NCBI GenBank assembly: GCA_023135935.1
Contig: JAGLSU010000038.1
Coordinates: 1 to 35,417 of the forward strand
Origin: Planctomycetota bacterium
GTDB taxonomy: Bacteria; Planctomycetota; Phycisphaerae; Sedimentisphaerales; Anaerobacaceae
Length of the DNA stretch: 35,417 bases
Direction of reading: 5' to 3'
Part shown: positions 735 through 25,281 of the stretch, piece by piece
Layout: every line of letters starts with the position of its first letter
Numbering within the stretch: the stretch's first letter is position 1
Translations under genes and position numbers: made by a program
The notes under the pieces: model-generated
The model's input: only the letters and a program-made list of their open reading frames with translations
Database searches by the model: none
Told to the model about the DNA's origin: nothing

Positions 735-2063
735 ATGAACATGCTCAAAGAACTCATCCGCTTCATCAGAGCCGACATCTGGCGAATCCGCCTCAAAACA
801 TACCCCAAAAAAAAATCATTCTTCATAAAACAACTGCGAATCATCCTTCTCGCGATTCGCGGCTACAAAGAAGACAAATGTAAGTTCCGTGCCTCCGCGC
901 TCACATTCTACTCACTGCTGTCAATCGTTCCCGTCATAGCCATGATATTCGGAATCGCCAAAGGTTTCGGAATGGAAAAGCTTGTCGAAAAACAACTCCT
1001 CGAAAAAATGCAGGGTCAGGAAGAAGTCATCACGAAAATCATTAACTTCTCCCAGTCACTACTCGAAAATACTAAAGGCGGATTCATCGCCGGCATCGGC
1101 GTCATCATACTCTTCTGGTCCGTCATGAAAGTACTCGGCAACATCGAAACTGCTTTCAACGTCATCTGGGGTGTAAAACGTCCGCGCCATTTAGGAAGAA
1201 AATTCAGCGACTACCTCTCAATGGTACTCGTCTGCCCCATACTGCTCGTAGTCTCCGGCTCAATGACAGCCGTCTTCTCTTCCCAAATAAAAATCCTCAT
1301 ACACAAAATCCCGTTCTTCACCTCTGTACTCGGAGCAATCATACTGCCCTCACTGAAACTTCTTCCATATTGCAGCCTATGGATAATGTTCACTTTCATA
1401 TTCATCTTCATGCCGAACACAAAAGTTAAATTCAAATCCGGACTGCTCGCCGGAATCATTGCCGGCACAATCTTTCAGCTCGTCCAGTGGGGCTATATAA
1501 ACTTCCAAATCGGTGCAGCCAAGTATGGCGCAATCTACGGTTCTTTCGCTGCACTGCCACTGTTCCTAATGTGGCTGCAAATCAGTTGGCTTGTCGTCCT
1601 CTTCGGTGCCGAACTATCCTTCGCCCACCAAAACGTCGACACATACGAATTCGAACAGGACTGCCTCGCCATTAGTCACTCTCACAAAAAGCTGCTCTCA
1701 CTGCTCGTCACCCACTTGCTCATTAAAAACTTCTGTATAGGTGAAAAACCTTCCGATGCCGACCAAATCTCACACGCCCTCGAAATACCAATCCGCCTTG
1801 TAAGACAAATCCTCTTCGAACTAAACCGTGCCGGCATCGTCTCTCAAGCCGAAAAAGATGATAGCAAGGACCTTGCCTACCAACCCGCCCGCGACGTCGA
1901 TACCCTCACAGTTAAATCCGTCCTCGACTCCCTCGATAATGCAGGCCTAGCCGATATCCCAGTAACCGAATCCAACGAACTGAAAAAACTCTTGAGCTGC
2001 CTGAAATCCTTCAGCCAAACCCTACAAAAATCCCCGAACAATATCCTTTTGAAGAATATATAA
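735..2063 (+). CDS. YihY/BrkB family inner membrane protein with C-terminal winged-helix-like extension
   Basis: RASALTFYSLLSIVPVIAMIFGIAKGFG and YGAIYGSFAALPLFLMWLQISWLVVLFGAELSFAHQN are typical of the YihY family; several TM segments; C-terminus DADQISHALEIPIRLVRQILFELNRAGIV resembles an Rrf2/MarR-like HTH. Confidence 0.92.
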   Translation: MNMLKELIRFIRADIWRIRLKTYPKKKSFFIKQLRIILLAIRGYKEDKCKFRASALTFYSLLSIVPVIAMIFGIAKGFGMEKLVEKQLLEKMQGQEEVITKIINFSQSLLENTKGGFIAGIGVIILFWSVMKVLGNIETAFNVIWGVKRPRHLGRKFSDYLSMVLVCPILLVVSGSMTAVFSSQIKILIHKIPFFTSVLGAIILPSLKLLPYCSLWIMFTFIFIFMPNTKVKFKSGLLAGIIAGTIFQLVQWGYINFQIGAAKYGAIYGSFAALPLFLMWLQISWLVVLFGAELSFAHQNVDTYEFEQDCLAISHSHKKLLSLLVTHLLIKNFCIGEKPSDADQISHALEIPIRLVRQILFELNRAGIVSQAEKDDSKDLAYQPARDVDTLTVKSVLDSLDNAGLADIPVTESNELKKLLSCLKSFSQTLQKSPNNILLKNI

Positions 2064-2211
2064 TTATCCGTCATCCAAGTCCCCGCGTTTAACTTTGCAA
2101 AGCACAAATTCTTAATTCCTTCGAAGGAGCAGTCTAATTCCGAATTTGCCCGTTCTTCTCGGAAAGTTGTGGGAACCACAAAACATACTACTAAAAGATA
2201 TCTGACCTTTG

Positions 2212-2242
2212 CCTGCCTCGCCATAGCTTTAGCGACGGCGGG
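2212..2242. repeat. REP-like stem-loop
   Basis: CCTGCCTCGC-CATAGCTTTA-GCGA(C)GGCGGG forms a near-perfect stem (one G.U wobble, one bulged C) in non-coding DNA. Confidence 0.45.
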
Positions 2243-2288
2243 TCATTTCGACCGACTTGTGGTTACCGTTTCCGTTTTTTATGTTTAG

Positions 2289-2318
2289 CCCCCAGTTCTA
2301 TACTGGGGGTTGCTTTTG
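2289..2318 (+). terminator. Putative rho-independent terminator downstream of the YihY-family gene
   Basis: CCCCCAGT-tctat-ACTGGGGG (2289-2309) followed by ttgctttt. Confidence 0.6.
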
Positions 2319-2463
2319 ATCTGGCCATCGAATGGTAACACCCACCAAATCCATTTTATTACCCCTTGCAATCACACACAATACAGCTATAATTTATCCA
2401 ACACCAACGGGGCCACAACCGGAGAAAGGGTATTGAAATAAAAAATAGTTTCGGGGATTAGCA

Positions 2464-3018
2464 ATGCAACGTGAAACCAAAAAGTTATTGAAAAGTATAG
2501 GTAACCTCATCGGTTGGAATTTAACCGATTTCGCCGTCGATACTTTCAACCTTCTTACTTTGAATATACCGAAGACAATGATGGAAAAACGTGTGCAGAG
2601 AGAAATAGCTGAGAGGTTGTACCCTAATTTGATGACAATGTCGCCAGAGATGCAGCTATGGGATTTGCTGCGGGTGGGCATGTCTGAAGAGGAAGCAGGT
2701 AGGTGGTTAGGGTTACCTGAGACGGTTGCGTTAGAAGATAGAGACAGTAACGAAATCACTTGGTGTTATAGCAGTAAGGGACTTCATTGTGGTGTAGTTA
2801 TCTTTGGTAACAAGAAAGTAACATATTTTGCATATCGCACAAATGATGGTCATACCGTAAAGAGCCATCCATATGTGGGTTCATCAGACAATAAAATCTT
2901 CCATCGGCATGACGAGGTTTGTGTTGATGAGATATCATCAGAGAATTTTGTTGGATATGAGACAAGGAAAGCCGCCATGGAAGATGGCTATAAACCGTGT
3001 GAAAAATGCAAACCATGA
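2464..3018 (+). CDS. Hypothetical protein with C-terminal Ada-like metal-binding motif
   Basis: 184-aa ORF; C-terminus FHRHDEVCVDEISSENFVGYETRKAAMEDGYKPCEKCKP matches the pattern FHRxxC...I...N.V.F.SREEA...GYxPCxxCxP. Confidence 0.75.
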   Translation: MQRETKKLLKSIGNLIGWNLTDFAVDTFNLLTLNIPKTMMEKRVQREIAERLYPNLMTMSPEMQLWDLLRVGMSEEEAGRWLGLPETVALEDRDSNEITWCYSSKGLHCGVVIFGNKKVTYFAYRTNDGHTVKSHPYVGSSDNKIFHRHDEVCVDEISSENFVGYETRKAAMEDGYKPCEKCKP

Positions 3019-3277
3019 TGCTGCTCATTGTTCCATGTACGGTGATGGGAAGTCTTGTAGGATGGGCAATTTTTGCCCATGCGGATTTTTATGTCTTACG
3101 TCTTTGGTCTTATATCCTTTGTCTGTGGCCAACTCCTTCACTCCCTAAAAACCCTCTCTTCTCTTCCTCCACACACACTTCCTCACCCCCTCATCACGAA
3201 TCAAAAACGCGATACCTCGCATTAACAGGTACCTTGCATTCCGATGTAGTGGCAGATCTCTCCTTTGGTCTTACGTC

Positions 3278-3352
3278 TTTTGTGCTTTGGTAATTAGTAT
3301 TTGTTTAGAATTTAGGGTTTAGCATTTAGAGTTTCAGAACTACTCGCAACCC
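3278..3352. repeat. 75-bp dispersed direct repeat, copy 1
   Basis: ttttgtgctttggtaattagtatttgtttagaatttagggtttagcatttagagtttcagaactactcgcaaccc; differs from 5866-5940 at 3 positions. Confidence 0.9.
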
Positions 3353-3380
3353 GCAACTCGCAACCCGTAACCCGCAACCC
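3346..3380. repeat. Heptanucleotide tandem repeat (GCAACCC)x5, degenerate
   Basis: GCAACCC GCAACTC GCAACCC GTAACCC GCAACCC read directly. Confidence 0.9.
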
Positions 3381-3387
3381 GTTCCCC

Positions 3388-3708
3388 CTATTCCTCCAAC
3401 TCCTTGATAGTCAAAACAGTCAGCCATTTCTGTCCGTCTTTTTCCGCCACTGTCCCTTTCACCTCGACCTTCAAGTCGATATAGTCACTCAGTTCATCTC
3501 CCTTTTCGTCAAGCACAACCTCATAAGTTATATCTTCTGTCACAAGCGACACCCCTATGATATAATCGTTCGCATCTGTCTTGACATTAACTACACCCTG
3601 CACCGTAACCGTCCGAACTTCCCCTTCTTTCTGGGAAGCCGCACCCGAACAAAGCATCATCATTCCAACCAACACCAAAACGCCCGCCGCTTTTTTTATC
3701 GTTACCAT
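3388..3708 (-). CDS. Small secreted protein, possible OB-fold
   Basis: 106-aa ORF with signal peptide-like N-terminus (MVTIKKAAGVLVLVGMMMLCSGAAS) and beta-rich remainder; ends just before the downstream repeat. Confidence 0.7.
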   Translation of the reverse strand: MVTIKKAAGVLVLVGMMMLCSGAASQKEGEVRTVTVQGVVNVKTDANDYIIGVSLVTEDITYEVVLDEKGDELSDYIDLKVEVKGTVAEKDGQKWLTVLTIKELEE

Positions 3709-3738
3709 ATTCGTGCCTTCTCTTCTTCATCCATATCG

Positions 3739-5757
3739 CTATTTACGCTCAAAAGGTTTTTTGATTCGTTCCTCTACCCACTCCCGGCTAATCACAATTC
3801 CGTATTGGTCGTGTCGTACCCAGTATCCCTCTTTCTTGTGTTTCAATGCGGTCTTGTACCTTAACAAAGCAATATTACGCCGACCAAGCAAATCCAGAAC
3901 ATGTCCCTCCCACACCATCGAAACAAAATAATCATTTGAACCTTTTTTTGACGCCCCTCGGGACCTTTGGAAAGCTTCCAATCCTTCTTTGTAGTAATTA
4001 CCGTCATACAAAATCATCCCTAATTTAAACCAGCTATTACGGTCTGACAATTTCCCTTCCGTGGCTTCTTTAAATAATTTCAAAGCGGCCTTCCCAACTT
4101 TCGTCCAGCCCGTCCGCTTAATTTTATCGATAGTCAACGTACTATTTGACGTAGGCCGAGGCGAACTCAACAATGGCAGAACCCCGTTAGGGTCCAATCG
4201 TACTTCTTTCAAAGCTGCTTTGCTTTCAAATTCTACAACGCTTACATCCAAAAGCCGCTCCGTAAACTTCTCCTGCATGCTGCCGTCTTCAAAATAAGCG
4301 GCTAATGGAACCGGCATCCTCAAATCGCCGATACGTTCCACCTCTACCTTACTCCTGTACCCCTCACCTTCCTTCTCGCAGCTTTTGGAAGAAATTTTGT
4401 ACGATAGGTATCGGTTACTGTTGACCCATTGTTCGAAAAACCATCCCAAATCTTGACCAGCTTCTTCTTCACAAATGGTTTGAAATTCAGAAACGCCTAA
4501 CCTTCGTCCGGCAAATTCCTTTAAACATCGCTGATAAACTCTGCTAAAGACTTCCTTTCCCAAAACACAATCCAAAGCACTGATAACACTGGAGCTCTTT
4601 CCGTGTTGAACAACATTGTTAAAATCGAATCTAATCTTCGAACGCTGCTCAGCAGTTATATTTATCGTGGTATCAAAACCGGCACGCACTCCTTTAATAT
4701 AACTATCTGCGAAACCCCGATGTTTCGTTGTGCCCGGATTCCTTGCTCGAGTATATTCTCTGTCTGCGTATATCCCCAGACCAAGCATCAGCCAATCAAA
4801 TGAATCTGCTGGGTCACTACTTAACATGTGCTCACCGCAATATTGATGACCGATTTCATGTGCCGTAATCCATCGCCAGTGACGCTCGTCTTTTTTCTCC
4901 ATCTGCTCCATCGCATGGATTGCCACGATACTCGTAGCCACCGGGTATCCGCCTGTTGTAGGAAAATCTGACCCGGGAATAATCGTTAGACTTGAATGAG
5001 GATAGAATCCGAAACGTTCACGATAGTAATTTACTACGTCAACTGCTGTACTCATAACCAGTTGCGCACATTTCTCTCCCTTAGGGCTATATAAACATCG
5101 AATAGTTACATCGCCCGCATTCGCTTCGAGGGATTTAAAATCTTTACCAATGAACAAACCGAAGGAACGAACTCCATTCGCGCGATAGTAACCTGTTCTT
5201 TTATCTAATACGCCGCTTGCACCTATCAGGTATTCGGGTGATGCTTTTACCTTGACCTCAAAATCATCATGCGTTTCAAAACCCCACCACAAACGTGGAT
5301 ACCAGCCGGTAATCGGCTCTCGATTTATATTTACAAGCGAGGTATTCTGAAAACTAAAACTTATCTCAAGAATTCCCTCGTCACCACACTCGACTTTTTC
5401 TGGCAACTCTATAACAAAACTTTCAATCCCAGAGTCTTCCTTGCCGCTGCCCAATACTGCTACGGCCTTGCCCTTACTTGTGATTTCCATACTCGCAGCC
5501 GAAGACCATAATATCGCTACACGACATATTGGCCGAGATGTCATATTCTTAAAACGAATTACCTCCTTACCTTCCGCACGACCCACAACGGTATCAATTG
5601 TATACTCAATCTTGTAATGTGCTTTTGGGGGATTCTTTGGCACCCAATAACTCCCTGTTGCCGTAGTTGCGTTACCTGTTCCCCACAACACCACAAAAAA
5701 TAAAGCTACCGAAAGAAATCTTGCGAATCTATGTCCCATCATCTTTTTTGTCCTCAC
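3739..5757 (-). CDS. M1-like metallopeptidase (gluzincin) domain protein, secreted, with C-terminal TPR-like region
   Basis: Signal peptide; GGYPVATSIVAIH...WRWITAHEIGHQYCGEHM contains HExxH; downstream EQWVNSNRYLSYKI as in M1-like proteins; C-terminal TPR-like helices. Confidence 0.85.
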   Translation of the reverse strand: MRTKKMMGHRFARFLSVALFFVVLWGTGNATTATGSYWVPKNPPKAHYKIEYTIDTVVGRAEGKEVIRFKNMTSRPICRVAILWSSAASMEITSKGKAVAVLGSGKEDSGIESFVIELPEKVECGDEGILEISFSFQNTSLVNINREPITGWYPRLWWGFETHDDFEVKVKASPEYLIGASGVLDKRTGYYRANGVRSFGLFIGKDFKSLEANAGDVTIRCLYSPKGEKCAQLVMSTAVDVVNYYRERFGFYPHSSLTIIPGSDFPTTGGYPVATSIVAIHAMEQMEKKDERHWRWITAHEIGHQYCGEHMLSSDPADSFDWLMLGLGIYADREYTRARNPGTTKHRGFADSYIKGVRAGFDTTINITAEQRSKIRFDFNNVVQHGKSSSVISALDCVLGKEVFSRVYQRCLKEFAGRRLGVSEFQTICEEEAGQDLGWFFEQWVNSNRYLSYKISSKSCEKEGEGYRSKVEVERIGDLRMPVPLAAYFEDGSMQEKFTERLLDVSVVEFESKAALKEVRLDPNGVLPLLSSPRPTSNSTLTIDKIKRTGWTKVGKAALKLFKEATEGKLSDRNSWFKLGMILYDGNYYKEGLEAFQRSRGASKKGSNDYFVSMVWEGHVLDLLGRRNIALLRYKTALKHKKEGYWVRHDQYGIVISREWVEERIKKPFERK

Positions 5758-16764: not shown

Positions 16765-18087
16765 CTACTTGTCTTTAATCGCCTGGTAACCGTAATGAGC
16801 TATGAGGTGGTCGAGTATTACCATTGCGGTATAGTTTTCGGCAACGGGCCAAATGCGACCGGTAATCGTCGGGTCACGTCTGGTGATAGCTTCGAGGTCT
16901 TTGTTTTCCAGAGTATATTTATCAATCGTCTTCTGTGGTCTGTCAATTGTAGGTGTCGGCTTAACGGTCAGTCTGACAACGATTGGTTGACCGGTAGATA
17001 AACCGCCCGTAATTCCACCGGCATGGTTCGAATCGAAAACGACCTTGCCATTCTCGGAATGCATCTGGTCATTGGATTCGTAACCTGTCATATTCTTTAC
17101 AGCAAACCCTGCACCGACTTCTACGCCCTTGACCGCACCTATGCCGAGCATCCTGCCAAGTTCGGCATCGAGCTTATAGAACACCGGCTCGCCCAAACCT
17201 GCGGGAACACCGGTCACAACCACTTCGACTATGCCACCGGATGAATCACCTGTTTTAGTAATCTTGTTACAGGCTTCAACCATCGCGTCAGCTGCGTCGA
17301 TATCAGGACAATTCACTATCGGATGAACACCGTATTTATCCTTTATCTCTTCAGCGGAGGCCTTAGGTGCCTTGTCGCGAATAGCGTCGATTTCATTTTC
17401 GACCTCGGCAAGAACTTTAATTTTCTCCAGAAAACGCATATCCATATTGATACGGTTCTTTACATAAATTTCCTGATAAAACGGGTCGAGGTCATTACGC
17501 ATCTTTTTATAATCTTCGGTGTACTTAAGCGTTTTTTCATGATCGATATCGGGACAGCTTACACCGGCAATCTCTTTGATATATGAGAATACTTCGATGC
17601 CGCATTTTTTCAAAATCTTCTTGGCGACATATCCCGCAGCCACGATAGTGGAAGTATATCTTCCGCTGAATATTCCTGCACCGATGGCATCATCATCCGG
17701 GCCGTATTTCATAAAGGAAGCATAAGACGCGTGTCCCGGACGAGGTGTGCGGTTGGTGTCCTGATATTGCTTTATATGGATGAAGTGACGGTCCAGATTC
17801 GGAATTAAAATCGTCAGTGGCGTTCCGTTGGTATGGTTTTTGTTACCGGCGCCTTCGACAGTGTCAGCGGCATTGAGACCTGTGTAAATAATCGGCAGGT
17901 CCGGTTCTTTTCGCGGACTGGAAAGCTCATCGGCACCCGGCTTCCTGAGAAGCATATCGCCGTATATTTCCTGCTCGCTCAATAACATTCCCGGTGGATG
18001 ACCGTGTATGACAGCCGTTAAACCATCCTGATAAGAACCGCCCGCGACGGTTACCTGAAAAATACGTCCCATGTGACAACCAATCAT
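16765..18087 (-). CDS. aroC: Divergent chorismate synthase homologue
   Basis: RPGHASYASFMKYG, GVPAGLGEPVFYKLDAELGRMLGIGAVKGVEVGAGF, SNHAGGITGGLSTGQPIVVRLTVKPTPTI match AroC, but the FGESHG motif reads AGGSYQDG. M6 (18072) is an alternative start. Confidence 0.88.
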   Translation of the reverse strand: MIGCHMGRIFQVTVAGGSYQDGLTAVIHGHPPGMLLSEQEIYGDMLLRKPGADELSSPRKEPDLPIIYTGLNAADTVEGAGNKNHTNGTPLTILIPNLDRHFIHIKQYQDTNRTPRPGHASYASFMKYGPDDDAIGAGIFSGRYTSTIVAAGYVAKKILKKCGIEVFSYIKEIAGVSCPDIDHEKTLKYTEDYKKMRNDLDPFYQEIYVKNRINMDMRFLEKIKVLAEVENEIDAIRDKAPKASAEEIKDKYGVHPIVNCPDIDAADAMVEACNKITKTGDSSGGIVEVVVTGVPAGLGEPVFYKLDAELGRMLGIGAVKGVEVGAGFAVKNMTGYESNDQMHSENGKVVFDSNHAGGITGGLSTGQPIVVRLTVKPTPTIDRPQKTIDKYTLENKDLEAITRRDPTITGRIWPVAENYTAMVILDHLIAHYGYQAIKDK

Positions 18088-18145: not shown

Positions 18146-19408
18146 TTATTTTGAAAAAACTTCAAACTTTTCCCAGAAGTCAGGAAAGGACTTTGCCACG
18201 CACATTTCATTTTCGATGTATTGGTTGCCTGTGACCAGTCCGGCTATGGCGAAACTCATCGCAATCCTATGGTCATTGTGGGGGTCTATGTTAGCACCGT
18301 GTATTTGTTTGCTGCCCTCTATGATAAGTGAATTTTCATCGCATTTAGCAGAAACGCCCATTTTCTTAAGTTGCGAAGCCATTACCGCCAGTCTGTCGCA
18401 TTCTTTGTGTCGCAGATGCCCTATGTTTGTGAGTTTGCTTGTACCTTCCGCAAATGCGGCGGCTATTGCCAGTGGTGGTACCAGGTCCGGCAGATTACTC
18501 ATGTCCTGTTCGATTGCGTGCATATTGCTTCCTTCAACACAGATTCGGTCATCTGCTTCGGAAACTTTGCAGCCCATCTTTTCAATGAGTGTCAAAAACC
18601 CCTTGTCTCCCTGTTTTGTGTTGGGATTTAGACCTTTCACAGTAACTTTGGTTTTGCAAATTGCAGCGGCCAGAAAAAAAAACGAAGCGCTGCTGTAGTC
18701 ACCTTCTATCTTTATTTCTCGTGCGGTATATTTTTCATCGTTTGGAATAATTATTTGTTTGTAATTATTGTTCACGGCCTTTACACCGAATTCAGCCATC
18801 ATTTGCAAACTGATATCAAAATAAGGTCTTTCTGTCATTGTGTCGATGCACGTTAAGGTCACTTTGTTATCTGCATAAGGTGAAGATGTAGTAATTGAGC
18901 TGAAATACTGAGATGTTTTCTGGCCTTTTATTTGTGCGTCACCACCTTTTATTCCACCGCCATAAACTTTGATTGGCGGGAAACCTTCCTGTTCGAGATA
19001 TTCTATTTTACAGCCTAATTGCCGCATGCCGTTTACTACTTCCGAAATAGGCCTTTCGGTAATTCTTTCGGCGCCGGTGATAATTACAGGTTTACAGGAC
19101 AGACACGCAGCCGAAGTCAGAAAATTCATACCAACACCGGATTCACCTACGTTTAGTTCTTCAGAGACGGGACTATATTTTCCGTCTGTACCGTACACAA
19201 CTATCTTGTTGTTATCGTGTTCGATTTTTACTCCGAGTCTTTTAAGGCATTCAATGACATTTAACTGGTCTTGTCCGAATAGCGGATTTTGAATAATACT
19301 TTTGCCTTCTGCTAAGGAACTTATAATCAAAGCGCGTAAGGTGTATGCTTTGGCCGGAGGAGCCTCAATTATGACGTCGGTATTGCAGATTTTGTCCACG
19401 GTTTTCAT
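18146..19408 (-). CDS. aroA: 3-phosphoshikimate 1-carboxyvinyltransferase (EPSP synthase) homologue
   Basis: LPDLVPPLAIAAAFAEGTSKLTNIGHLRHKECDRLAVMASQLKKMG, DPHNDHRIAMSFAIAGL, CVAKSFPDFWEKF and TERPYFDISLQMMAEFG are EPSPS motifs; the LGNAGTAMRPL loop is replaced by VGESGVGMNFL. Confidence 0.93.
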   Translation of the reverse strand: MKTVDKICNTDVIIEAPPAKAYTLRALIISSLAEGKSIIQNPLFGQDQLNVIECLKRLGVKIEHDNNKIVVYGTDGKYSPVSEELNVGESGVGMNFLTSAACLSCKPVIITGAERITERPISEVVNGMRQLGCKIEYLEQEGFPPIKVYGGGIKGGDAQIKGQKTSQYFSSITTSSPYADNKVTLTCIDTMTERPYFDISLQMMAEFGVKAVNNNYKQIIIPNDEKYTAREIKIEGDYSSASFFFLAAAICKTKVTVKGLNPNTKQGDKGFLTLIEKMGCKVSEADDRICVEGSNMHAIEQDMSNLPDLVPPLAIAAAFAEGTSKLTNIGHLRHKECDRLAVMASQLKKMGVSAKCDENSLIIEGSKQIHGANIDPHNDHRIAMSFAIAGLVTGNQYIENEMCVAKSFPDFWEKFEVFSK

Positions 19409-19527: not shown

Positions 19528-21267
19528 CTATTCGGAGATGTCTTCTTTGAGCCAATCAGCTGTTTGATTGTTGTAGCTCAAGAGGATTTGCAGGTCATTG
19601 ACGTCGATTGTACCGTTGGTGTTGATGTCACCAAGCAGGTAGCCGTCGGATGAGTTACTGCTGGACGTTAGATTCTTGAACATAATCTCGAAATCGAGTT
19701 CGTTGACAATGCCGTCTGCGTTAAGGTCGTACCAGCCGATATCCTTATCGTTCTGCTTTTCGCTGACGTTCCATGCCGCTGCATACGCCTGAGTCGCCAC
19801 CATTTTATTCGGGTCATCGGTATCACTGTAGACAACGGTAATTTCGTAATCAGTATAGTTCGGGTCAGCCTGACAATAAACATGCTCGACATTGTCAATA
19901 CTGCTGTCACTGTAATCGAGCAGATAATCATTGTTCGGGTCATTAGCATCGACTGCCCAAACTTCAAGTCGTAAATTGGCATCCTTTTCGGGTATCGCCT
20001 CGAATGGATAAACATTGCTATAGTGCTTGTTCCAAACAGTTGTAGCGATGATGAGTTTGTCTGCAGGATTTTGCAGAACAATCTTATAGGATTTTTCCAA
20101 TCCTTCATTTTTCTCCAGTTGGTTCAGGTTCCAGCCGGTTTGTGACATATCTGCTTGTTTGGCAATTAAATGTTTATAAGCACCAACCGCATTCAATGCT
20201 CCGGCCCCCTGAATATAATCGAGCGGCACCTGGTGGTCGTCGTCTTTCGATAATTTACCCTTGTGCCAGTAAGCAAGCTTTGTCGCTGAATTCATCAGGA
20301 TAGCTTTCATTACACAGTTACCGCTATTCGGGTCAACAGCCGCACTTAAATTGGGGTCTTGCTTTGCTTTCTGTCTCAGTAATCCGATTGTTCCTGCAAC
20401 TATCGGTGTTGAAAAGCTTGACCAGTTACCGGCTGGTTCATATTGATTGGGTTCATTAACATCGGCGGCGAGACAATTTCCGACTGTGACAATATCCGGT
20501 TTGCATCTGCCGTCTGCGGTCGGTCCGATACTTGAGTGTTCAGGATATGCCAACGAAAAATTCGCCAACGCAACTGTGAGGTCTTCCGTGTTTACAGAAT
20601 TGATAACACCGACACCGATGACGTTCGAACCTGCGCCCGGATAGAGAGTTGGGTCGTAGGTATTTGAGCCGTTGCCTATGCCAGCTACAATAACAAGACC
20701 GTGCTGTTCGGCAAGTGACTCAAAACCGCGAGTCCACCAATCCTCGAATTGATTACCGATACTTGTAGTAACAACATCTGCCTCAGGCGGCGTGTTGGAA
20801 AAAACGTTATTGATTAGGAAATGCCAGAATTCATAAATGTCAGCTTCGCCTTCGGCAGCGACACCTTGATAATTGAATTGACCCAACTGAGAATCGCTGG
20901 CGTTGGGGTCTTCACCGAGCAGTATCGAACAGATAGCTGTTGAGTGAGGTGAAACGCCTGCCGGTAGTTCACCCTGGTCATAAAAACTCAATTCTTTACC
21001 ATTGAAACAATTATGCTCAACGCTCGGCCGGTAATCGTTTTGTGGTTCACCGTCGGTGTAAGTGATGCTCCTGCAAATAACGGCGAATTTGACACCGGAA
21101 CCGGTCAGGGTTGGGTCTAACTGCTTTAAGGCGTAAATTCCGGCTTGATTCAGACCTTGCGGCTGCATCGTTAGCTCGGATTCCGCAGCAGCTATTGCCG
21201 GCGCATAAAGCGCCATCACCCAAGCCAGTATGCTGATACTAAGCATTTTGTTGGCATTATATGCCAT
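19528..21267 (-). CDS. Secreted S8 subtilase-like protein with C-terminal dockerin-like domain; catalytic Asp apparently missing
   Basis: GVSPHSTAICSILLGED (His), IVAGIGNGSN (oxyanion Asn), NWSSFSTPIVAGTIGLL (Ser); Asp position reads FAVICRSIT; C-terminus IGWYDLNADGIVNELDFEIMF...YLLGDINTNGTIDVNDLQILL is a two-EF-hand dockerin-like module. Confidence 0.85.
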   Translation of the reverse strand: MAYNANKMLSISILAWVMALYAPAIAAAESELTMQPQGLNQAGIYALKQLDPTLTGSGVKFAVICRSITYTDGEPQNDYRPSVEHNCFNGKELSFYDQGELPAGVSPHSTAICSILLGEDPNASDSQLGQFNYQGVAAEGEADIYEFWHFLINNVFSNTPPEADVVTTSIGNQFEDWWTRGFESLAEQHGLVIVAGIGNGSNTYDPTLYPGAGSNVIGVGVINSVNTEDLTVALANFSLAYPEHSSIGPTADGRCKPDIVTVGNCLAADVNEPNQYEPAGNWSSFSTPIVAGTIGLLRQKAKQDPNLSAAVDPNSGNCVMKAILMNSATKLAYWHKGKLSKDDDHQVPLDYIQGAGALNAVGAYKHLIAKQADMSQTGWNLNQLEKNEGLEKSYKIVLQNPADKLIIATTVWNKHYSNVYPFEAIPEKDANLRLEVWAVDANDPNNDYLLDYSDSSIDNVEHVYCQADPNYTDYEITVVYSDTDDPNKMVATQAYAAAWNVSEKQNDKDIGWYDLNADGIVNELDFEIMFKNLTSSSNSSDGYLLGDINTNGTIDVNDLQILLSYNNQTADWLKEDISE

Positions 21268-21555: not shown

Positions 21556-22083
21556 ATGAAAGTAATTTTGGATTCCGGACAGATTGAGCAGGTTCTCGAC
21601 GAATTAGCTGGTCGTATTATTTCCGAAAATCCAGACCAATCAGAACTGGTAGTTATAGGCATTCGCAGCAGGGGGGAGATTCTCGCACAACGACTCTCAG
21701 AACAATTATCGAAAAAACTTGGCAAAGATGTTCTGTGCGGAACTTTGGACATTACACTTTACCGTGACGACCTCAATTCGCCGCAGGGCTCCGCTCAACC
21801 ACAGGTTAGAACCACTGAAATCGGTTTTGATGTAAGTGACAAAATAATCGTTCTGGTGGATGATGTTTTATATACCGGCCGCTCGGTACGTGCGGCATTG
21901 GATGCACTTATAGATTTAGGAAGACCAAAAGCGATTAAACTGGCGGTTCTCGTAGATAGAGCCGGTAGAGAGTTTCCGATACAAGCCGATTACGCAGGTT
22001 ACAAAACAGATGTCGCGCCGGGTGAGTTGGTGCAGGTTAACCTTATCGAATCGGATGGCAAGGATGAAGTGGTTATCGAGTAG
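21556..22083 (+). CDS. pyrR: Bifunctional pyrimidine regulator / uracil phosphoribosyltransferase PyrR
   Basis: VVIGIRSRGEILAQRL, DITLYRDDL, IIVLVDDVLYTGRSVRAALDAL, LAVLVDRAGREFPIQADYAG. Confidence 0.96.
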   Translation: MKVILDSGQIEQVLDELAGRIISENPDQSELVVIGIRSRGEILAQRLSEQLSKKLGKDVLCGTLDITLYRDDLNSPQGSAQPQVRTTEIGFDVSDKIIVLVDDVLYTGRSVRAALDALIDLGRPKAIKLAVLVDRAGREFPIQADYAGYKTDVAPGELVQVNLIESDGKDEVVIE

Positions 22084-22109
22084 TAATTAATACTGCCAGA
22101 TAAACTGTT

Positions 22110-23075
22110 ATGGCGTCAAAAACAAAACAATTCGAATGGAATCACAAGCACTTGCTTGGCCTGCGTGATTTAAGTGCTGAAGAAATCACTTATATTCTTG
22201 ATACGGCGCAGGGCTTCGAACAAATAAGCAAACGTGCAGTCAAAAAAGCACCGGCTTTACGCGGCAAATTAGTGGTCAATATGTTCTTCGAAGATAGCAC
22301 GCGAACGCGCAACAGCTTTACCTTAGCCGCAAGCCGATTAAGCGCCGACCTCATAGAGTTCACCAAAAAATCCAGCTCAGTCAGCAAAGGTGAAACACTC
22401 TTAGATACTGCCAGAAATCTGGAGGCGATGGGAATCGATATAGTTGTGATTCGTCACGGTGCAGGTGGGGCACCAAAGCTTTTAAGCAAAAATATAAACG
22501 CATGTGTAATAAATGCCGGCGATGGGTTCTGTGAACATCCGACACAGGCGCTTTTAGATGTTTATACCATTCGCAAGGCAAAGGGGTCTCTCAAAGGTCT
22601 AAAGGTGGCAATCGTTGGTGACATAGCGCACTCTCGTGTTGCCCGCAGTAATATGTGGGCTATGACGAAACTCGGTGCCGAAGTTATTTTTGTCGGTCCG
22701 CCAACCCTTATGCCGGGCGAAGTGGACCGCCTTCCTGTTACTGTCAGCTACTCACTCGATGAAGTAATAGAAAAAGTAGATGTGGTAAATGTGCTTCGGA
22801 TTCAGTTCGAACGCCTCGGAGGAAATCCTTTCCCCTCGGTGCGGGAATATTCGCATTATTTCGGATTGACGGTAGAACGCATGAAAAAAGCCAAGCCCGA
22901 CATTCTCGTTATGCACCCCGGACCAATCAACAGAGGCCTGGAAATAGAAAGCGAAGTAGCCGATGGCCCGAACAGCGTTATCTTAGAGCAGGTTACTAAC
23001 GGTGTAGCGGTAAGAATGGCCGTGCTGTTCCTGGTAAATCAAGCCGCCGCCGCACAAAAAAACTTAAAACTTTAA
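22110..23075 (+). CDS. pyrB: Aspartate carbamoyltransferase catalytic subunit
   Basis: [81 protein letters not shown]. Confidence 0.98.
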
Positions 23076-23115
23076 ACGGGAAATGCAAAACCAAAATTCA
23101 AAATTTAAAACCGAA
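23065..23115. repeat. AT-rich repeat overlapping the start of the four-helix-bundle gene (inverted relative to 23457-23505)
   Basis: Reverse complement ttcggttttaaattttgaattttggttttgc resembles 5855-5880 (tctgttttgaattttgtgctttggt) and 6612-6642 (tctgttttaaattttgcactgtggtttt). Confidence 0.45.
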
Positions 23116-23454
23116 TTAAAACATAGGGCGTATCAATATTCTATTAAAATGATAGAGTTCTTAGATACTTTGCCAAAAGATATGTCTACGAACGTTATTG
23201 CAAAGCAACTATTGAGGTCGGCTACTTCTGTAGGAGCAAATGTTGTTGAAGCTAAAGGTGCTAGTTCTAAACGGGATTTTACCAACTTTTTTAGTTATTC
23301 TCTTAAATCTGCAAACGAAAGTTTGTACTGGCTTGGCTTGCTGAGGGACGCTAAAAAAATGAATAATGCTCAGTTACAGTATCTTTTGGATGAGACTAAA
23401 GAATTAGCAAATATTCTTGGTTCAAGTATTTTGACTCTCAAAGGGAAGAGATAA
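23083..23454 (+). CDS. Four-helix-bundle protein (23S rRNA intervening-sequence / IVP-like family)
   Basis: ELKHRAYQYSIKMIEFLDTLPK...IAKQLLRSATSVGANVVEAKGASSKRDFTNFFSYSLKSANESLYWLGLLRDA...LLDETKELANILGSSILTLK is the family pattern (LLRSATSVGANxxEA, SLKSANEtxYWL). Confidence 0.92.
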   Translation: MQNQNSKFKTELKHRAYQYSIKMIEFLDTLPKDMSTNVIAKQLLRSATSVGANVVEAKGASSKRDFTNFFSYSLKSANESLYWLGLLRDAKKMNNAQLQYLLDETKELANILGSSILTLKGKR

Positions 23455-23456
23455 GC

Positions 23457-23505
23457 TTTGAATTTTAAAATGTGGTTTTTAGTTTTTGCTTTTAACTTTT
23501 TAGTT
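23457..23505. repeat. AT-rich dispersed repeat downstream of the four-helix-bundle gene
   Basis: tttgaattttaaaatgtggtttttagtttttgcttttaactttttagtttg; similar to 6612-6650. Confidence 0.55.
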
Positions 23506-23510
23506 TGAAT

Positions 23511-24797
23511 ATGGCTAAAGAACTTTTAATAAAAAACGGACATGTGATAGACCCAGCCAACGGCATCGACAAAAAGTGCGATGTACTTGTAGTCGATGGC
23601 CAAATAGCAGACCTTGGCAAGGTCGGTAAATCTGTCGCCGATACCATCGACGCTGCCGATAAACTGGTGGTCCCGGGCTTAATTGATATACATGTTCATT
23701 TTCGCGAACCAGGCGATGAAGAAGAAGAAACTATAGCCAGCGGTTCGGCAGCAGCGGTCGCCGCGGGTTTCACTTCGGTTGTGTGTATGCCGAATACCAC
23801 TCCGCCAATCGAAAATGAAACCGATGTCGAATACATTCACCGCAAAGGAAGGCAAGCAAGACAAACCCATGTATATACCATGGGTGCTATAACAAAAAAT
23901 AGAGAAGGTGTCGAACTTTCCGAGATGGGATTTATGGCCGAAGCCGGTGCCGTTGGTTTTACCGATGATGGTAACGGTGTCCAGGACCCCGCTGTTATGC
24001 TTCGCGCCATGAAGTATGCAACCATGCTTGATGTCGTCATATCTCAGCATTGTCAGGATAATAGTTTTGCCGGCAGCGGTGTGATGAATGCCAGCTACTA
24101 TTCGAGCATTCTTGGTCTGCCCGGAATAGACAAACTTGCCGAAGAGGCAATGTTGTGGCGCGATATCCAACTCGTCAAAAAGACGAACGCTCGTTATCAC
24201 GCTCAGCACATATCAACAGCCGAAGCCGTCGAACTGATAAGGACTGCGAAAAAGCAATCTCTTCCGATTACCTGCGAAGTAACACCGCATCATTTACTCT
24301 TGAACGAACAATGTTGTGCCGAATATGATACTAATTACAAAGTTAATCCCCCGTTGCGTACGGAAAAAGATATTGAAGCTTTAAAACAGGCAATTGCCGA
24401 TGGGCTCGTCGATGCCTTAGTGACCGACCATGCGCCGCACCTGCAAAGCGAAAAGGAACTCGAATTTTTGGCGGCTCCTTTCGGTATAGCCGGTTTGGAA
24501 TGCGCCTTGGGACTTTATGTTAAAGCCCTGATTGAACCGGGTATTTTAGACTGGGCCGGACTTATAAAATTAATGACAGAAAAACCAGCCAATATAATTG
24601 GTATTGATAAAGGTACACTGGGTAAAGGCAGACAGGCCGATATTACTATCATCGACCCGGACGCCGAGTACAAAATTGATATAAATAAATTCCGCTCAAA
24701 AAGCAAAAACTGTCCCTATCACGGCTGGACAGTAAAAGGCAAAGTCGAAAAGACTATTGTTGGCGGAGAAGTAAGGTTTTCGGCAGGTGGTGATTAG
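23511..24797 (+). CDS. pyrC: Dihydroorotase
   Basis: VVPGLIDIHVHFREPGDEEEETIASGSAAAVAAGFTSVVCMPNTTPPI, CEVTPHHLLL, ALVTDHAPH, GKGRQADITIIDP. Start at ATG 23511 is more likely than 23505. Confidence 0.97.
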   Translation: MAKELLIKNGHVIDPANGIDKKCDVLVVDGQIADLGKVGKSVADTIDAADKLVVPGLIDIHVHFREPGDEEEETIASGSAAAVAAGFTSVVCMPNTTPPIENETDVEYIHRKGRQARQTHVYTMGAITKNREGVELSEMGFMAEAGAVGFTDDGNGVQDPAVMLRAMKYATMLDVVISQHCQDNSFAGSGVMNASYYSSILGLPGIDKLAEEAMLWRDIQLVKKTNARYHAQHISTAEAVELIRTAKKQSLPITCEVTPHHLLLNEQCCAEYDTNYKVNPPLRTEKDIEALKQAIADGLVDALVTDHAPHLQSEKELEFLAAPFGIAGLECALGLYVKALIEPGILDWAGLIKLMTEKPANIIGIDKGTLGKGRQADITIIDPDAEYKIDINKFRSKSKNCPYHGWTVKGKVEKTIVGGEVRFSAGGD

Positions 24798-24801
24798 GTA
24801 G

Positions 24802-25281
24802 ATGCCGGTTATAGTCGACGGTTATAATCTGCTAAGAGCAATTCAAAAGGCACACGAGCAGTTCGAATCAGTCAGTGACGTTCAATTATGCCGTATCTTA
24901 GGCAGATACCTAAAGTCAGTTGGCGAAAAGGGCGAAATTATATTTGATGGTATCGGTCCGCCTGATAAAACTGGATTCGATAATATCAGCAATTTAGAAG
25001 TGTTTTTTGTTGGCTTTAACACTGATGCTGATTCGGTCATTGAAGACAAGATAAAAGCCAATACCGCACCTAAGAGATTGGCAGTTGTAAGCAGCGACAG
25101 ACGCATTCGCAGCGCTGCCCAGAAAAGAAAAGCAACATCGTTAAAATCAGACGTTTTTTGGGATAGACTGCAAAAGCAGCTAAGTCGTAAAAGGACAATT
25201 AAGGAACCAAAAGCCAAAAGAGCAGGGCTAACCGAAAGCGAAACCGAACAATGGCTTAAGATTTTTGGTATCGAACAGTAA
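24802..25281 (+). CDS. NYN (YacP-like) domain protein, putative RNase
   Basis: MPVIVDGYNLLRAI, IIFDGIGPP, VFFVGFNTDADSVIEDKI, VVSSDRRIRSAAQKRKAT match the YacP-like NYN pattern. Confidence 0.85.
   Translation: MPVIVDGYNLLRAIQKAHEQFESVSDVQLCRILGRYLKSVGEKGEIIFDGIGPPDKTGFDNISNLEVFFVGFNTDADSVIEDKIKANTAPKRLAVVSSDRRIRSAAQKRKATSLKSDVFWDRLQKQLSRKRTIKEPKAKRAGLTESETEQWLKIFGIEQ

Follow-up and report, generated by a model that had tools for sequence, protein, structure and literature searches.

The window, a stretch of 35,417 nucleotides from a planctomycete contig, contains on its minus strand an open-reading frame of 440 amino acids, which is assigned to chorismate synthase (AroC) by both family model and fold (Table 1). 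The enzyme is called here Tyr-type, after the tyrosine found at the place of the GESHG histidine of ordinary, His-type enzymes. The segment singled out in an earlier sequence-only reading, positions 18015–18072, is the 5′ end of this gene and encodes residues 6–24.

Table 1. Features of the locus; positions are those of the window, except in the last row, which refers to locus L011
Feature	Position	Strand	Evidence and remarks
Tyr-type chorismate synthase (aroC)	16765..18087	-	440 aa, ATG start; AGGAG just 5′ of the start codon
Tyr19 codon, at the GESHG His (N. crassa His17, E. coli His19)	18031..18033	-	Tyr 118/118, His 87/87
His104 codon, invariant extra His, 3-residue insertion before RPGHA	17776..17778	-	118/118 Tyr-type; gap in 87/87 His-type
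His119 codon, RPGHA His kept (N. crassa His106, S. pneumoniae His110)	17731..17733	-	alignment; role from PMC3509576
Insertion of about 62 aa, helical, about residues 186–247, long Tyr branch only	17347..17532	-	alignment; predicted models
Ser141 codon, active-site serine kept	17665..17667	-	conserved in all three groups of the alignment
Arg404-Asp405 codons, Arg for His beside the kept catalytic Asp (N. crassa Asp367)	16873..16878	-	alignment
aroA (EPSP synthase), directly upstream, makes the chorismate synthase substrate	18146..19408	-	TIGR01356, 420 bits versus cut-off 287
Secreted-looking protein, 1990 aa	10734-16706	+	reads as beta-helix-like repeats, then a subtilisin-like part
Separate subtilase with type I dockerin domain	19528-21267	-	Pfam
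Pyrimidine cluster	21556-25281	+	reads as pyrR, pyrB, dihydroorotase-like amidohydrolase (the last by Pfam)
Gene row of L011 (relative in genome G031)	1456-3063, 3060-3965, 3-1316	all -

An aroA gene directly upstream on the same strand is found in 29 of the 54 related loci that have enough flanking sequence, and these include quite different aroA lineages, with bit scores of about 200 versus about 650. In two loci without aroA, L049 (2214-3107, 6313-6825) and L066 (6313-7203), the Tyr-form gene has purC and purE as neighbours, which correspond to SAICAR synthetase and AIR carboxylase. Locus L011 contains aroA, an aroK-aroC fusion and a Tyr-type aroC in a row; in several further relatives from the order, too, the His-type open-reading frames span 535–600 amino acids. 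Elsewhere in the window, the pyrimidine cluster lies on the strand opposite to aroA-aroC, and the dockerins are cellulosome-like, in a planctomycete.

The window protein matches PF01264 with 316 bits (cut-off 27 bits) over model positions 1–327 of 327, the equivalog TIGR00033 with 316.6 bits (cut-off 212.2) and NF003793 with 325.6 (cut-off 321). The closest solved structures are all chorismate synthases; the predicted model aligns with 20 chorismate synthase entries with Z of 24–27 over 239–323 residues, the next unrelated chain having a Z of 5.2, and a Foldseek search of the model likewise supports the chorismate synthase fold. The mean pLDDT of the two AlphaFold2 models is 68 and 71. The active-site loops (about residues 98–142 and 326–364) have values below 50, probably due to overly similar sequences in the input alignment, and are weak for placing Tyr19, His104 and Arg404, while the helices of the insert region (residues 183–252) score mostly 79–94 in both models. 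Patterns corresponding to PROSITE signatures 1 and 3 match none of the 111 Tyr-type sequences tested.

The N-terminus aligns without gaps with the A. baumannii enzyme (PDB code 4lj2), where GESHG stands against GGSYQ, and with E. coli AroC, so that the histidine of GESHG corresponds to Tyr19, in agreement with the sequence-only reading. Its other motif assignments also stand: GRSSARET is changed to GIFSGRYT and RHDP to RRDP, while RPGHA, AGGITGG and KPTPTI are retained. The insertion of about 60 residues that it had placed ahead of NCPD is real, and two further insertions are present, one of about 10 residues (about 73–82) and one of 3 residues (about 101–104).

The GESHG and RPGHA histidines of chorismate synthase have been described as invariant, and mechanisms have been built on both. 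The RPGHA histidine is positioned at the flavin N1/C2=O and protonates the reduced flavin, and the catalytic aspartate primes the flavin N5 (PMC3509576). His17 lies next to the EPSP phosphate, whose departure it could assist (PMC7144000). The earlier description of His17 as the acid near the flavin had thus swapped the two roles, the flavin-side residue being the RPGHA histidine (PMC7144000, PMC3509576). As His17 is placed at the phosphate by the literature, the group missing from the window enzyme is the phosphate-side acid and not the flavin-side one. The flavin-side His119 of RPGHA, the N5-side Asp405 of RxDP and the relay serines Ser18 and Ser141 are all invariant; Ser141 corresponds to N. 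crassa Ser127. The phosphate-side histidine typical of the family is a tyrosine, and for this reason the protein is classed as belonging to a variant subfamily rather than as a standard chorismate synthase. With an active-site histidine replaced by tyrosine, the textbook mechanism cannot apply unchanged.

A scan with one genome per species gave 65 loci of the long form, nearly all at 73–86% identity, and GGSYQ[DE]G is present in every one that includes the N-terminus. The records are labelled as Planctomycetota, Fibrobacterota, Armatimonadota, Omnitrophota, Elusimicrobia, Lentisphaerota, Auribacterota and others, although labels of metagenomes may be wrong. Two long Tyr-type genes per genome are present in G500, G593 and G465. 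Searches of phylum samples revealed a second, shorter Tyr type, with GESY and no insert; among its members, L251-L255 contain their own insertion of about 15 residues immediately after GESY (GESYSGGFRKNPAVPPELYGG). Searches of viral contigs gave no relatives of the Tyr-type enzyme. The Tyr type is a real variant subfamily of a known enzyme, and no description of it was found in the literature searched.

An alignment of 205 distinct sequences comprises 118 of the Tyr type and 87 of the His type, with tyrosine at position 19 in all of the former and histidine in all of the latter. The occurrence of the tyrosine in 118 of 118 sequences from several phyla excludes chance or sequencing error. The window comes from a draft metagenome assembly of 158 contigs, which might suggest an artefact of annotation, assembly or alignment, with the true GESHG elsewhere or the sequence itself wrong. 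Against this stand the gapless N-terminus and the recurrence of the same residues in genomes that are complete on a single contig, as well as in more than 100 independent assemblies; the probability of an artefact is negligible, and it was rejected together with the idea of a different register. Neither of the two observations named beforehand as speaking against the reading, another register or a tyrosine common among verified enzymes, was made.

Tyr19 is perfectly coupled to His104, which every one of the 118 Tyr-type sequences has and for which all 87 His-type ones show a gap. Arg404, next to the catalytic aspartate, which is found in all sequences, occurs in 118 of 118 versus 0 of 87, and is flanked by two threonines (TRRD.T in the Tyr type versus GRHD.C). 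The His104 loop of ordinary enzymes is not histidine-free, since roughly one in three His-type enzymes carries a histidine at another place in it. The change from RHDP to RRDP alone was dropped as diagnostic since the residue following the arginine varies in His-type enzymes too (Ser, Gly, Ala), and the uniqueness of GIFSGRYT was weakened by the FSGR of a few His-type enzymes (HFSGRLT in L014, L129 and L269). Consequently, only Tyr19, His104, Arg404 and the two flanking threonines mark the clade. Ser18, His119, Ser141, Arg143 and Asp405 are kept in the Tyr type, and Arg48, Arg116 and Arg403 are invariant in both types. Loss of the GRSSARET residues Arg, Ser and Glu is a further change, confined to the long branch.

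Phylogenetic analysis was based on a maximum-likelihood tree of 85 sequences and a quick tree of 121 rows. In the former, the Tyr-type sequences form a single clade (support 100/99, with a bootstrap value of 100) nested among His-type AroC, and the Tyr form is therefore a conserved clade, a point on which the sequence-only reading had proposed such a tree. The long and short forms make up one clade each and are sister groups; nearest to them is a His-type group that includes planctomycete sequences. The AroC of E. coli and the B. subtilis-like enzymes branch outside. The tree was rooted at the mid-point, where the program warned of long branches. The change from histidine to tyrosine is most likely the derived state, as every characterised chorismate synthase known to us has histidine at the GESHG position, with the direction left open should the root fall on the stem of the Tyr clade itself. 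Since all Tyr types go back to one event, the coupling of Tyr19, His104 and Arg404 reflects joint inheritance and not repeated co-evolution, and having one origin it is not independent evidence for their joint function.

The Tyr type might be a crippled or slow chorismate synthase, for which His17 is dispensable and no other donor compensates, fixed by a founder through drift and spread by gene transfer. Alanine at His17 of the N. crassa enzyme is said to cause a loss of the same order as about 20-fold. Replacement of its flavin-side active-site histidine by alanine likewise decreases activity only about 20-fold (PMC3509576), a modest cost that agrees with such a view. However, none of the 118 sequences departs from Tyr19, His104 and Arg404, the long branch maintains 82–83% mean column identity across phyla, and ordinary AroC has been displaced on more than one occasion, one case being a genus whose species differ in AroC type (G046 versus G050/G054). 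A crippled enzyme is accordingly very unlikely.

The displacement is most apparent in the Planctomycetota sample, for which completeness of at least 90% was requested and to which the window's own draft was added (14 of the 15 Tyr-form genomes are at least 90% complete). His-type AroC is absent from 13 of these 15 genomes versus 8 of the 378 others, with a p value of 3e-17 that is overstated because the tests ignore the non-independence of the genomes. The samples labelled Fibrobacterota, Armatimonadota, Elusimicrobiota and Lentisphaerota show the same direction. A canonical AroC elsewhere in the window's own genome, for which the sequence-only reading had suggested a search, was not found in the 158 contigs (84% complete). 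Family searches detected prephenate dehydratase in all 31 Tyr-only genomes, the window's own included, and the TrpE/PabB family in 30 of them. The exception is the window's own 1.93 Mb draft, 84% complete, which has no TrpE/PabB-family match though prephenate dehydratase is present, reflecting either a missing contig or auxotrophy for tryptophan/folate. The replacement pattern, the aroA context and the presence of chorismate-using enzymes together indicate that the Tyr form is the chorismate synthase of the cell. Both types are present in some genomes, on a single contig in G044, as adjacent genes in G031 and, within the Fibrobacterota sample, in 6 of 17 genomes with the Tyr form; the two types may therefore not be strictly equivalent, and a division of labour is possible there.

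Such co-occurrence would also fit a paralogue, that is, an AroC-derived lyase with its phosphate side re-tuned to a different allylic phosphate, which was the other option offered by the sequence-only reading. The residue that changed is indeed the substrate-side one, and in a few loci (L049, L066) the neighbours are purine and not aro genes. Yet most Tyr-form genomes have no other AroC while possessing prephenate dehydratase and TrpE/PabB, aroA is directly upstream in more than half of the loci with sufficient flank, the protein scores above the chorismate synthase equivalog cut-offs, and Arg48, Arg116 and Arg403 do not differ between the two types. Being usually the sole AroC of chorismate-using genomes, nested within AroC and often placed directly behind aroA, the Tyr form is unlikely to be such a paralogue. 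The first option of that reading, a lineage-specific AroC with a different proton donor, gains support in both lineage and function, the different donor being a possibility.

The window gene very probably encodes a functional chorismate synthase of a derived subfamily, in which the phosphate end has been rebuilt and which displaces ordinary AroC in most of its carriers. Its reaction would be the reduced-FMN-dependent conversion of EPSP into chorismate and phosphate. As the residues of the flavin chemistry are all kept, flavin activation is expected to be ordinary, with His119 protonating the flavin and Asp405 and the two serines running the proton relay at N5, and the phosphate end would be the rebuilt part. 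The phosphate-assisting histidine appears to have become Tyr19 in a single lineage of the family, which presumably also acquired Arg404 and, in the inserted loop, His104. In the most likely arrangement, Tyr19 does no more than hydrogen-bond the phosphate, and the charge or proton comes from Arg404 and/or His104. That the catalytic acid has moved, His104 and Arg404 taking over from His17 in assisting the departure of the EPSP phosphate, is put forward tentatively, as a possibility that we hold to be somewhat doubtful. If it is true, there is a second active site, wired differently, for the same non-redox flavin reaction.

Chorismate synthase is essential for the synthesis of aromatic amino acids and is a drug target. 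A widespread natural lineage that lacks one histidine and apparently displaces the ordinary enzyme is a ready-made test of the role of this histidine, and bears on whether the leaving phosphate must be protonated. Inhibitors built around the GESHG histidine may not bind Tyr-type enzymes, and annotation is corrected in that the family signature patterns miss them.

The window enzyme has the same fold as His-type AroC (E. coli b2329, N. crassa, S. pneumoniae 1QXO) and matches the family over its whole length. Like these enzymes it keeps Ser18, His119, Ser141, Arg143, Arg403 and Asp405, and its gene adjoins aroA, but it differs in the tyrosine for the GESHG histidine, the arginine for the RHDP histidine, the extra invariant His104, three insertions and GIFSGRYT for GRSSARET. 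With the short Tyr-type enzymes (GESYG; L193-L198, L227-L233, L251-L255) it has in common the tyrosine at the His17 position, His104 and TRRD[PA], while the short form lacks the 62-residue insert and keeps GESY and GR[AS]SGRET. The AroK-AroC fusion of related Planctomycetota (L011) belongs to the same family and pathway step as the window enzyme, but it is of the His type and is fused to a shikimate kinase domain.
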